From NCBI RefSeq assembly GCF_002787055.1, contig NZ_CP024808.1, forward strand, positions 186,001 through 250,000: a stretch of DNA of 64,000 nucleotides, read 5' to 3'. A program made the translations under genes and the position numbers. Positions within the stretch are counted from its first letter, which is position 1. Each line of letters begins with the position of its first letter. The notes below the pieces were generated by a model, which saw only the letters and a program-made list of their open reading frames with translations, searched no databases and was not told the origin of the DNA. The DNA comes from Candidatus Nitrosotenuis aquarius. Its GTDB lineage: Archaea > Thermoproteota > Nitrososphaeria > Nitrososphaerales > Nitrosopumilaceae. Positions 43,781 to 48,188 of this stretch are shown here, one piece after another.

Positions 43781-44938
43781 ATTTCAATAAAAAAATCCCA
43801 GTTTGCAAATAAAAAAGCAAAACTGATCTTATCTGATGGTACCGTTCTTTCTGGCAAGGGCTTTGGCGCATCAAAGACCGTTTTTGGCGAACTAGTATTC
43901 AACACCGGAATGGTAGGATACGTCGAAACACTGACTGACCCGTCTTATTCGGGGCAAATCCTGACTCTGACTTATCCACTTGTGGGCAATTATGGCGTGC
44001 CGGACCCGTCACAAGCCGACGAGTCTGGGATATCAAAATTCTTTGAATCTGGGCGTATCCAGGCTCGAGGCTTGGTTGTACACGAACTATCCGAGATTGC
44101 AAGCCACTGGAATCTCTCCATGACACTAGATGAGTGGATGCACAAGGAGGGGGTGCCGGGAATTTCCGATATTGACACTAGGGAGCTGACAAAAAGACTT
44201 CGAATCAGCGGAGTCACAATGGCTGCACTGGTGGTGTCTGATTCTGAAATCAACGTGGAGCAAATCAAAAGAGAGCTGGCATCTGCAAAGCCATACTCTG
44301 AGGAAAAATTCATGGATGCAGTTTCCACAAAACAAGTCCAGTCATTTGGACAAGAATCTGACTGTGTCGTGGTGGTGGATACCGGTGTCAAAAATGCTAT
44401 ACTGCGAAATGTCCGGGATCTGGGATACAAGGTAATCAAGGTTCCATGGAATACTAGCTATTCAGATATCATGAAATATTCTCCAAAGGGAGTAGTGCTC
44501 AGCAACGGACCTGGCGACCCGGAGGCATGTCCTGAAACAATAGAGACTGCCAAGAACCTGATCCAAAATAACATTCCGACACTTGGCATTTGTCTTGGTG
44601 CACAAATTATAGGACTTGCTGGTGGCGCATCAACATACAAGCTAAAATACGGACACCGAGGACAAAACAAGTCCTGCCTTAATCTGCAAAATAAACAGGT
44701 CTATGTAACGTCACAAAACCATGGATATTGCATAGACCCCGACTCGCTTGGAAAGACGGAATTTGATCTGTGGTTTACAAACACTGACGATAACACAGTC
44801 GAAGGCATTCGACACAAGCTCAAAAAAATAATTGCAGTGCAATTTCATCCAGAGGCATCGCCTGGCCCATATGACTGCAAATTTGTTTTCGAAGAGCTTG
44901 ATTCTTTGATAAAGGGAGGGAAGCAAAATCAAAAATGA
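43781..44938 (+). CDS. carA: carbamoyl phosphate synthase small subunit (probable ATT start)
   Basis: 385 residues if translation begins at ATT 43781. Glutamine amidotransferase subunit supplying ammonia to CarB for arginine and pyrimidine synthesis. The N-terminal domain reads KKAKLILSDGTVLSG and FNTGMVGYVETLTDPSYSGQ; the class I amidotransferase domain has the catalytic Cys in PTLGICLGAQIIG and the His-Glu pair in VQFHPEASPGP. The first ATG in frame, at 43910, would remove 43 conserved residues, so it is not the true start. Confidence 0.93.
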   Translation: MSIKKSQFANKKAKLILSDGTVLSGKGFGASKTVFGELVFNTGMVGYVETLTDPSYSGQILTLTYPLVGNYGVPDPSQADESGISKFFESGRIQARGLVVHELSEIASHWNLSMTLDEWMHKEGVPGISDIDTRELTKRLRISGVTMAALVVSDSEINVEQIKRELASAKPYSEEKFMDAVSTKQVQSFGQESDCVVVVDTGVKNAILRNVRDLGYKVIKVPWNTSYSDIMKYSPKGVVLSNGPGDPEACPETIETAKNLIQNNIPTLGICLGAQIIGLAGGASTYKLKYGHRGQNKSCLNLQNKQVYVTSQNHGYCIDPDSLGKTEFDLWFTNTDDNTVEGIRHKLKKIIAVQFHPEASPGPYDCKFVFEELDSLIKGGKQNQK

Positions 44939-47900
44939 GTCACTGAAAAAAATCCTAGTTCTTGGCAGTGGGGCAATCAAAATCGGAGAAGCAGGCGAAA
45001 GTCGCTAAAACGACCGCTAATTCGACTACTCCGGTAGCCAATGCCTCAAGGCCATACACGAAGACGGTCTGAAATCCGTACTGATCAATCCCAACATCGC
45101 AACGATTCAGACCGACACTAGGTTTGCAGACAAGGTGTACCTTCTTCCGGTTACGCCAGAGTATGTCTCCTCTATAATAGAATCAGAGCGACCAGATGGA
45201 ATCATGCTTGGATATGGAGGGCAGACTGCCCTGAACTGCGGCGTAAAGCTAGCGGAAGCAGACGTTTTGCAAAAATATGATGTCAAAGTACTGGGAACGC
45301 AAATTCCTGGAATCCAAAAAACCGAAGACAGGCAACTATTCAAGGACTCAATGACAGAGTGCGGCGTTCCTGTACTAAAATCAAAAACAGTCAACACGTT
45401 TGAGGATGCAAAAAAGGCAGCAGAAGAACTGGGATACCCAGTAATAATTCGAGTTGCATATACTTTGGGCGGCCGTGGCGGGGGAGTCGCTCATAACGAA
45501 ATCGAGCTGCACGAAATCGTAGAGCGGGGACTCAACGCAAGCCTTGTCCACCAAGTACTAATTGAGGAATACATTGGCCACTGGAAGCAAATCGAATACG
45601 AGGTAATGCAGGACTATGAGGGAAACAATGTCATCGTATGCAACATGGAAAATGTCCTATCAATGCGAGTCCACACTGGCGACAACATCGTAGTTGCCCC
45701 ATCTCAGACAATAGATAATCGGGAATACCACATGTTGCGCTCTGCGGCATTGCGTGGGACAAAACATGTTGGTATTATTGGTGAATGTAACATCCAGTTC
45801 GCACTCGATATGAAGTCTGATCGATATGTTGCAATTGAAATCAACCCAAGACTTTCTAGATCATCTGCATTGGCTAGCAAGGCAACCGGATATCCACTTG
45901 CGTACATGTCTGCCAAAATCGGCCTCGGTCACACATTGCCTGAGCTAGTAAACAGAATAACAAAAACCACGACTGCCTGCTTTGAGCCATCTTTGGATTA
46001 TGCCGTAATCAAGCATCCTAGGTGGGACTTTACCAAATTTGAGCGTGCAAACCGCAAGCTGGGGCCCACAATGAAGTCGGTAGGCGAAGTAATGGCAGTT
46101 GGGCGCACCTTTGAAGAGTCTCTCCAAAAGGCAATTCGTATGTTGGATATTGGTAATGACGGCCTGGTTCTAAACAGACTCAATGTAGACGATAAGGAAA
46201 TAGAAGACATTGAAAATCACCTACTAAACCCAGACGACCGCATTTTGTATTATGTGGCAGCTGCACTGCGAAAAGGTGTCTCTGTTGAGAAAATCCACAA
46301 ACTCTCGTTTATTGATCCGTGGTTTATTGAGAAAATCAAAAACATCGTCGATGTGGAATCCGATCTCAAGAAAAAATCACTGGACATGAATCTGATGAGA
46401 AAAGCAAAACACCTGGGATTCTCTGATAGACAGATTGCGCGGGCGGTAAACAAGGACGACTTGGAGGTGCGAAAAATCCGCAAAGACATGGGTGTGTTGC
46501 CTGTTGTAAAGCAAATCGATACGCTTGCCGCAGAGTGGCCTGCCAAGACTAACTATCTTTACATGACATATGGTGGATACGACAACGACATTACAGTAAC
46601 GCCTGATCAAAAAGGCATAATCGTGCTTGGTGCAGGACCGTACCGAATCGGCTCATCAGTGGAATTTGACTGGGGAACAGTCAACATGGTGTGGGGCTTG
46701 CAGCAAAACGGCGAGTCCAATGTTGTCGTAGTCAATTGTAATCCTGAAACAGTATCTACTGATTATGACATTTGCTCTCGATTGTACTTTGAAGAGCTGA
46801 CGCTGGAGAGAATTTTGGATATTGTGGACATGGAAAATCCGAAAGGCGTTGTGACATCCGTGGGCGGACAAACCGCAAATAACCTGACTCCAAAACTTGC
46901 CAAGGCAGGAATCAAGCTGTTTGGCACATCTGCCGAAGATGTGGACAGGGCCGAAGACCGCTCCAAGTTCAGCGCAGTGCTGGATAAATTACACATAAAG
47001 CAGCCTCAGTGGCAGGCGTTTTCCAACTTTTCAGAGGCAAAATCCTTTGCCACAAAGGTTGGCTATCCTGTCTTGGTTAGGCCTTCATACGTGCTTTCTG
47101 GCGCGGCAATGAAGGTTGTCTGGTCACAGGAAGAGCTATCAAGATATGTCGGCGAGGCAACAACGCTTTCGCCAGACCATCCGGTTGTAATAACAAAATT
47201 CATGCTAAACTCGCTTGAGGTGGACGTTGACGGTGTCTCTGATGGAAAGAACGTCTTCATCGGAGCACTAGTGGAACACATTGACGCAGCTGGCGTACAC
47301 TCTGGTGACGCAATGATGGTGATTCCTCCATGGAGACTGTCAAACAAGCAAGTCGAGACCATAACTGACTATGCGACACGAATCGCAAAATCATTTAACA
47401 TTAGGGGGCCATTCAACCTCCAGTTTCTGATAAACAACGACCAAGTCTATGTCATAGAGCTAAACATCAGGGCGTCTCGCTCCATGCCGTTTGTATCAAA
47501 ACTAATCAAGACAAATCTTATCAGCTTGGCAGCACAGGCAGTCCTAGGAAAGGAGCTTCCAAAAATCCAGCCAGACAAGTGGAAGAAAACACCAATCCAT
47601 GGAATCAAGATGCCCCAGTTTTCGTTTATGCAGCTGGATGGAGCAGACATTGTGCTTGGTGTTGAAATGCAATCCACCGGCGAGGCAGCATGCTTTGGAG
47701 ATAGCTTCTATGACGCACTATCAAAGGGCTTGATTTCAGTTGGGTACAATCTGCCAAAGACTGGAACCGCGCTAATCACAATAGGCGGCTCAGAAAACAA
47801 GGAAAAACTGCTCCAAACAATGGCAACACTCAAGCACCTTGGATTCAAGTTGCTGGCAACAGAGCACACTGCGGAATTCCTAGAGGAAAAGCAAATAGGC

Positions 47901-48188
47901 GATGTGCAAATAGTGCACAAAATATCAGAGCCGGAGCGCAAGCCAAACATCTCGGATTTGCTATATGAGAGAAAAATCAATTTTATCATCAACATTCCGT
48001 CTACTTCAACACTGGAAAAATACGTGGGAATGCTAAATGACGAATACCAAATTAGACGAAAGGCAATAGAGCTTGGTATTCCTGTTCTTACGACAACGGA
48101 GCTGGCAGAATCCTTTGTCAAGACGCTAGAATGGATGACGCACAATGAAACCACTAAAAAAGCACTAGAACCGTACGATCCAATGTAG
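44928..48188 (+). CDS. carB: carbamoyl phosphate synthase large subunit with disrupted 5' end
   Basis: The body from 45135 is intact (over 1,000 residues): two ATP-grasp halves (AYTLGGRGGGVAHNE, EINPRLSRSSALASKATGYP; VRPSYVLSGAAMKVV) and a C-terminal allosteric domain. The first conserved block KKILVLGSGAIKIGEAGE is present from 44946, but then 21 bases (45000-45020) with two in-frame TAA codons separate it from FDYSGSQCLKA, which should follow directly. The nearby ATG (44935) is one base out of frame. Either the sequence is faulty, the gene is damaged, or the insert is removed in RNA. Confidence 0.88.

Follow-up and report, generated by a model that had tools for sequence, protein, structure and literature searches.

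How can carB of Candidatus Nitrosotenuis aquarius be expressed when its coding sequence is interrupted, close to the 5' end, by 21 bases that carry two in-frame stop codons? The gene lies in a 64,000-nucleotide stretch (hereafter the window) of a genome that is a single contig of 1,697,207 bases. The insert, AGTCGCTAAAACGACCGCTAA, occupies positions 45000-45020, after GCAGGCGAA (44991-44999) and before TTCGACTACTCC (from 45021), and parts GGC GAA from TTC GAC TAC. Direct reading bears out the first-pass annotation, which had described an insert that keeps the frame and adds two TAA codons: the carB frame runs GGC GAA AGT CGC TAA AAC GAC CGC TAA TTC GAC TAC. Also as described there, an imperfect tandem is present (CGCTAAAACGAC at 45003-45014 and CGCTAATTCGAC at 45015-45026), the carB frame is not the one in which the ATG at 44935 stands (it reads ATG AGT CAC TGA), and the remainder of the gene is intact, exon 2 encoding all of CarB, the large subunit of carbamoyl-phosphate synthase, from position 25 of the profile onward (TIGR01369, 1392 bits). 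A whole-genome search with the first 400 amino acids of exon 2 found no intact second carB; it matched carB itself, the second half of carB and three weaker ATP-grasp-like sequences (19-29% identity).

We conclude that the insert is very probably an archaeal bulge-helix-bulge (BHB) intron in the carB pre-mRNA. Removal from RNA had been offered as one option among several, and comparative evidence from geometry, covariation and rescue of the frame now supports it strongly, splicing itself being inferred from sequence. The features to which we refer are as follows.

43781-44938, plus strand: carA, directly upstream of carB, with a probable ATT start (TIGR01368)
44914-44920, plus strand: putative Shine-Dalgarno-like run GGGAGGG before carB, within the end of carA (from sequence)
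44928-44930, plus strand: ATC, probable near-cognate start codon of carB, 7 nt after GGGAGGG
44928-44999, plus strand: carB exon 1, encoding ...KKILVLGSGAIKIGEAGE, with a probable start (frame and conservation)
44983-44988, plus strand: 5' arm of the outer exon stem, TCGGAG, pairing with 45029-45034
44994-44997, plus strand: 5' arm of the central helix, GGCG (exon), pairing with 45015-45018
44998-45000, plus strand: 5' bulge AAA, predicted cut 44999/45000; ARA in 131 of 131 family inserts
45000-45020, plus strand: predicted BHB intron, 21 nt (geometry, conservation, covariation, frame rescue)
45001-45014, plus strand: intron hairpin GTCG-CTAAAA-CGAC; of the four pairs, three show double changes (67 sequences)
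45015-45018, plus strand: 3' arm of the central helix, CGCT (intron), from the family inserts
45019-45021, plus strand: 3' bulge AAT, predicted cut 45020/45021; AAT in 120, AGT in 8 and ATT in 3 of 131 family inserts
45021-48188, plus strand: carB exon 2 (TIGR01369)
45029-45034, plus strand: 3' arm of the outer exon stem, CTCCGG, pairing with 44983-44988

Predicted fold of the insert and its exon flanks

At BHB sites the cut falls after the second nucleotide of each bulge. In carB both bulges are 3 nt long and lie on opposite strands with a 4-bp helix between them, and canonical cuts applied to this fold remove exactly 45000-45020. Folding of the pre-mRNA would give an outer stem of exon bases, a 4-bp central helix in which exon pairs with intron, the two bulges, and a short hairpin within the intron. 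The tRNA-splicing endonuclease would cut after the second nucleotide of each bulge, a ligase, probably RtcB, would join the exons, and CarB would be made from the spliced mRNA. With the predicted cuts the product reads ...KIGEAGE-FDYSG..., and the junction peptide would be IGEAGEFDYSGSQCLK. The resemblance to a BHB site had been called loose, a description that does not hold given the GGCG/CGCT central helix, the two 3-nt bulges and the exact excision of the 21 bases. The suggested pairing of GTCG with CGAC within the insert does form, but it makes the inner hairpin alone and not the central helix. Beside the 3' bulge there is no strict helix but an internal loop, which is followed by the 6-bp outer stem; the site therefore departs from the strict hBHBh' form and is best described as a relaxed BHB.

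The same plan is found across the family. The central helix has 4 bp in 124 of 131 family inserts and 3 bp in the other 7; its partner strand is CGTC in 72, CGCT in 27, CGCC in 25 and CGCA in 7, and the bulges are AAA or AGA (5') and AAT, AGT or ATT (3') in all 131. Covariation extends to the central helix, as locus L219 has GGTG/CACC in place of GGCG/CGCC. RNAalifold recovers the same fold unaided. Among 67 distinct sequences, 99.5% of cells pair and three stem pairs show double changes. Cells with double changes number 36, against a mean of 12.7 in shuffled alignments that ignore relatedness (0 of 500 as high), and control alignments that were slid out of register pair in only 21-51% of cells. 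The stem has been rewritten in families f3, f5, f8, f10, f11 and f12. When the 21 bases were shuffled with their boundaries fixed, both helices formed in 1.5e-5 of 200,000 shuffles; the single-sequence folding energy is unremarkable (z -1.39, with 17 of 200 shuffles equally good). A search of Rfam with positions 44850-45150 gave no match at E values up to 1.

The exons, too, bear the mark of the fold. All six outer-stem pairs are present in 174 of 176 loci with the intron and in 12 of 50 loci without it, counts in which relatedness is still contained. At similar GC3 (0.29 for 114 low-GC3 loci with the intron, 0.25 for the 50 without), the codons with the wobble base that the fold requires are ATC in 113, GGC in 114, TAC in 111 and TCC in 103 of the 114 intron-bearing loci, as compared with 15, 3, 10 and 3 of the 50 intron-free loci, relatedness again not having been removed. 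Conservation of the outer-stem wobble bases is confined to loci that have the intron. Control sites +17 and +23 likewise differ between the two sets of loci, and site +23 falls within a further exon-exon pairing. This pairing, of 44969-44975 with 45042-45048, lies outside the outer stem; it is complete in 102 of 132 intron-bearing loci of family f1, in 3 of the 44 outside that family and in 4 of 50 intron-free loci, and because it is so rare beyond the intron-bearing loci of f1 it is not a general feature.

Distribution of the insert

To follow the insert through the order we used a DNA search that matched 216 of 250 family genomes, from which 180 family loci were read, together with 46 loci that come almost entirely from the other families of the order. 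From one batch of 68 matching genomes 30 loci were read and 38 left out, and a few genomes (G036 and G228) gave two loci. The junction was parsed in 226 order loci: 176 have an insert at exactly this codon and 50 do not. Insert lengths are 21 nt in 91 loci, 22 in 43, 20 in 25 and 23-33 in 17. Among 171 inserts the length leaves a remainder of 0, 1 or 2 on division by three in 97, 43 and 31 cases, so that 74 are not multiples of three; in all 171 the unspliced frame meets a stop codon, and in all 171 the spliced frame is open. The canonical cut yields a Glu codon in every one of the 171, whereas a cut one base earlier would give Asp in 10. A covariance model built on the intron and the sequence on either side found matches in 226 of 400 order genomes, some of them to intron-free exons (36-nt matches). 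A pattern scan of the named collection matched at least 120 contigs, and the titles among these matches include Nitrosotalea, Nitrosopumilus, Nitrosarchaeum, Nitrososphaera, Nitrosocosmicus and Cenarchaeum.

The intron has also been lost exactly: L019, of the same genus as the window, reads GGCGAATTTGATTAT, without the insert. On a weak tree of 218 rows the intron state changes at least 13 times within the order, a count that by itself cannot tell loss from gain; since no fewer than seven families have the intron at one and the same place, the simplest interpretation is repeated loss.

In a sample of the phylum the covariance model matched 59 of 398 genomes. Seven of these lie outside the order, all with 36-nt matches, and on reading they have no insert, GEAAEFDYSG being uninterrupted. 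One contig among the at least 120 scan matches, L343, is titled Woesearchaeota; this Woesearchaeota-titled contig (L343/L397) carries carA as well as a carB with the same intron. In the phylum to which that record belongs 11 of 371 genomes matched, L343's own among them, and all 11 show the same plan, with 17-30 nt inserted at the same codon; by the rule of our script the inner stem of L407 pairs over only 2 bp. Across all loci the carB introns span 17-34 nt. Any single Woesearchaeota-type record may stem from a misbinned contig, an explanation against which the agreement of eleven records speaks. Five of the 11 Woesearchaeota-type carB genes (L397, L399, L402, L404 and L407) have, some 20 codons upstream of the shared intron and between GSGA and KIGEAGE, a second putative intron that measures 29-36 nt and contains a long hairpin.

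In a CarB tree of 52 rows, from which L401 and L402 were dropped for stops further along the frame, the nine Woesearchaeota-type rows form one clade (100/100), a neighbour of the order's own clade (100/99) and no part of it. Jointly, these clades are set against seven intron-free outgroup rows at 88/87, below the tool's own trust mark. Since the intron is common to two archaeal phyla, it would be either very old or transferred between them, and both old shared descent and an old transfer fit the CarB tree.

Alternative explanations and start codons

The alternative that survives best, though we regard it as improbable, is translational bypass, in which the RNA retains the insert and ribosomes skip it, as in gene 60 of phage T4 and the byps of yeast mitochondria. 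An insert that forms a hairpin and that must be missing from the protein is what such a mechanism would also call for. By eye, however, the take-off and landing codons are unmatched, GAR standing against TAA, CAA, CAG, AAA and others before TTY, and bypass would not account for the exact geometry of the two bulges, for a central helix in which exon bases pair with the insert, or for the exon stem.

Less probable still is that exon 1 is noncoding and that translation begins downstream at GTG 45135. An open reading frame of 1017 amino acids does begin there, and upstream no canonical start codon is available: the carB frame has no ATG, GTG or TTG on the stretch that runs from its upstream stop codon to the insert. 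Against this, exon 1 together with the first codons of exon 2 keeps the CarB motif GSGAIKIGEAGEFDYSGSQ, which is found also in intron-free relatives and in outgroups.

The first-pass annotation had further weighed recent damage and sequencing or assembly error, both of which are excluded by the conservation of the insert over an order. For a pseudogene, which we consider most improbable, there are the two in-frame stops; the covariation, the opening of both exons after splicing and the position of carB as the sole copy in its genome all contradict it. An error, with the insert found in independent assemblies over the order, deserves practically no credence.

The start codon of carB is likely the ATC at 44928, and that of carA, which in the window also has no ATG, GTG or TTG at the expected start, is likely the ATT at 43781; each lies a few bases past a Shine-Dalgarno-like run. 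In 169 intron-bearing loci the codon aligned with the carB start is CTG in 81, ATG in 40, TTG in 9 and another codon in 39, and in 49 intron-free loci it is TTG in 25, ATG in 23 and AAT in 1. AT[ACT] occurs at this place in 14 loci (8 ATA, 4 ATC and 2 ATT). carA could be anchored in 81 of 86 loci of sufficient length, and in these we took the first of six allowed codons to be preceded by a Shine-Dalgarno sequence; the candidates are ATT in 51, ATA in 22, ATC in 2, and ATG and GTG in 1 each, with none in 4. A near-cognate start (ATT or ATA) of carA across order-mates may thus be noted as a lead. We considered and rejected a tie between the non-canonical carB start and the intron: the intron-free L019 is likewise without a nearby canonical start, and near-cognate carA candidates occur both with and without the carB intron. 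A search of the open-access literature for an untranslated stretch reported to lie in Pseudomonas carA gave no relevant result.

Known systems, possible significance and machinery

Introns in the cbf5 pre-mRNA of Crenarchaeota were reportedly described by Watanabe in 2002. According to a 2020 paper (PMC7714728), the intron of cbf5 mRNA is the only additional archaeal BHB intron reported, and Yokobori 2009 (PMC2738675) states that, as of that year, pre-mRNA splicing in archaea had been confirmed for no gene other than cbf5. In the accessible part of a 2026 review (PMC13149111), BHB splicing is mentioned only for tRNA. Our search of open-access papers, which covered titles and the starts of abstracts, found no report of an intron in carB, and the carB intron is likely new to the literature. 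The cbf5 introns resemble that of carB in that a BHB lies in a protein gene at one conserved position with lineage-specific losses (PMC2738675, in the text available); they differ in gene and in lineage, and in the size of the carB introns given above. A table in the same excerpt marks the cbf5 intron as absent from Nitrosopumilus maritimus and Cenarchaeum.

The BHB introns of archaeal tRNA and rRNA have the same substrate geometry and enzymes as proposed for carB (PMC7714728 and PMC12397907, in the parts available, and general knowledge), whereas in carB the exons are codons and their pairing is bought with the choice of wobble bases. The mRNA known to be processed by the same endonuclease is processed in its 5' UTR, and the carB site lies inside the coding frame. 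The putative 12-bp introns of the rudivirus SIRV1, cited in the available part of PMC2738675, are similar in being tiny introns proposed for archaeal protein genes; they differ in being viral and proposed only.

If the reading as a BHB intron is true, carB would be the second archaeal protein gene with such an intron, after cbf5, and the intron would be found both in the order to which the ammonia-oxidising archaea belong and in Woesearchaeota-type genomes far removed from it. Many genome annotations are then likely to show carB as broken or truncated. Splicing of carB would link the splicing endonuclease to the supply of pyrimidine and arginine besides that of tRNA, and with over 170 naturally occurring versions of a single substrate there would be a resource for learning what the endonuclease accepts. 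It is conceivable, though we would not expect it, that archaea have long had, under selection, an obligatory mRNA splicing step as a point of control over carbamoyl-phosphate synthesis. The intron would lie about 70 nt from the start codon, with codons forming the outer stem, and translation of both carA and carB frequently seems to start at near-cognate codons (AUU or AUA; CUG and others). If a ribosome initiated too early, it would open the BHB and run into a stop codon; with slow initiation, splicing may have time to happen first.

The genome has the genes that the proposed splicing would call for, namely two for PF01974 endonuclease subunits and one for RtcB. The 177-amino-acid PF01974 product keeps Tyr, His and Lys at what we take to be the positions of the catalytic triad, and the 197-amino-acid product is without the His. 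Two such products, one with the full triad and one without the His, suggest an endonuclease of the (alpha-beta)2 type. Crenarchaeal enzymes of this type are described, in the available text of PMC12397907, as accepting relaxed motifs, a tolerance that by analogy may carry over to this genome. ARAGORN, run on eight tRNA loci, called no gene in L393. The genome has 40 tRNA matches, of which several span 96-123 nt (for example G000:C1:728320-728442) and may hold introns.
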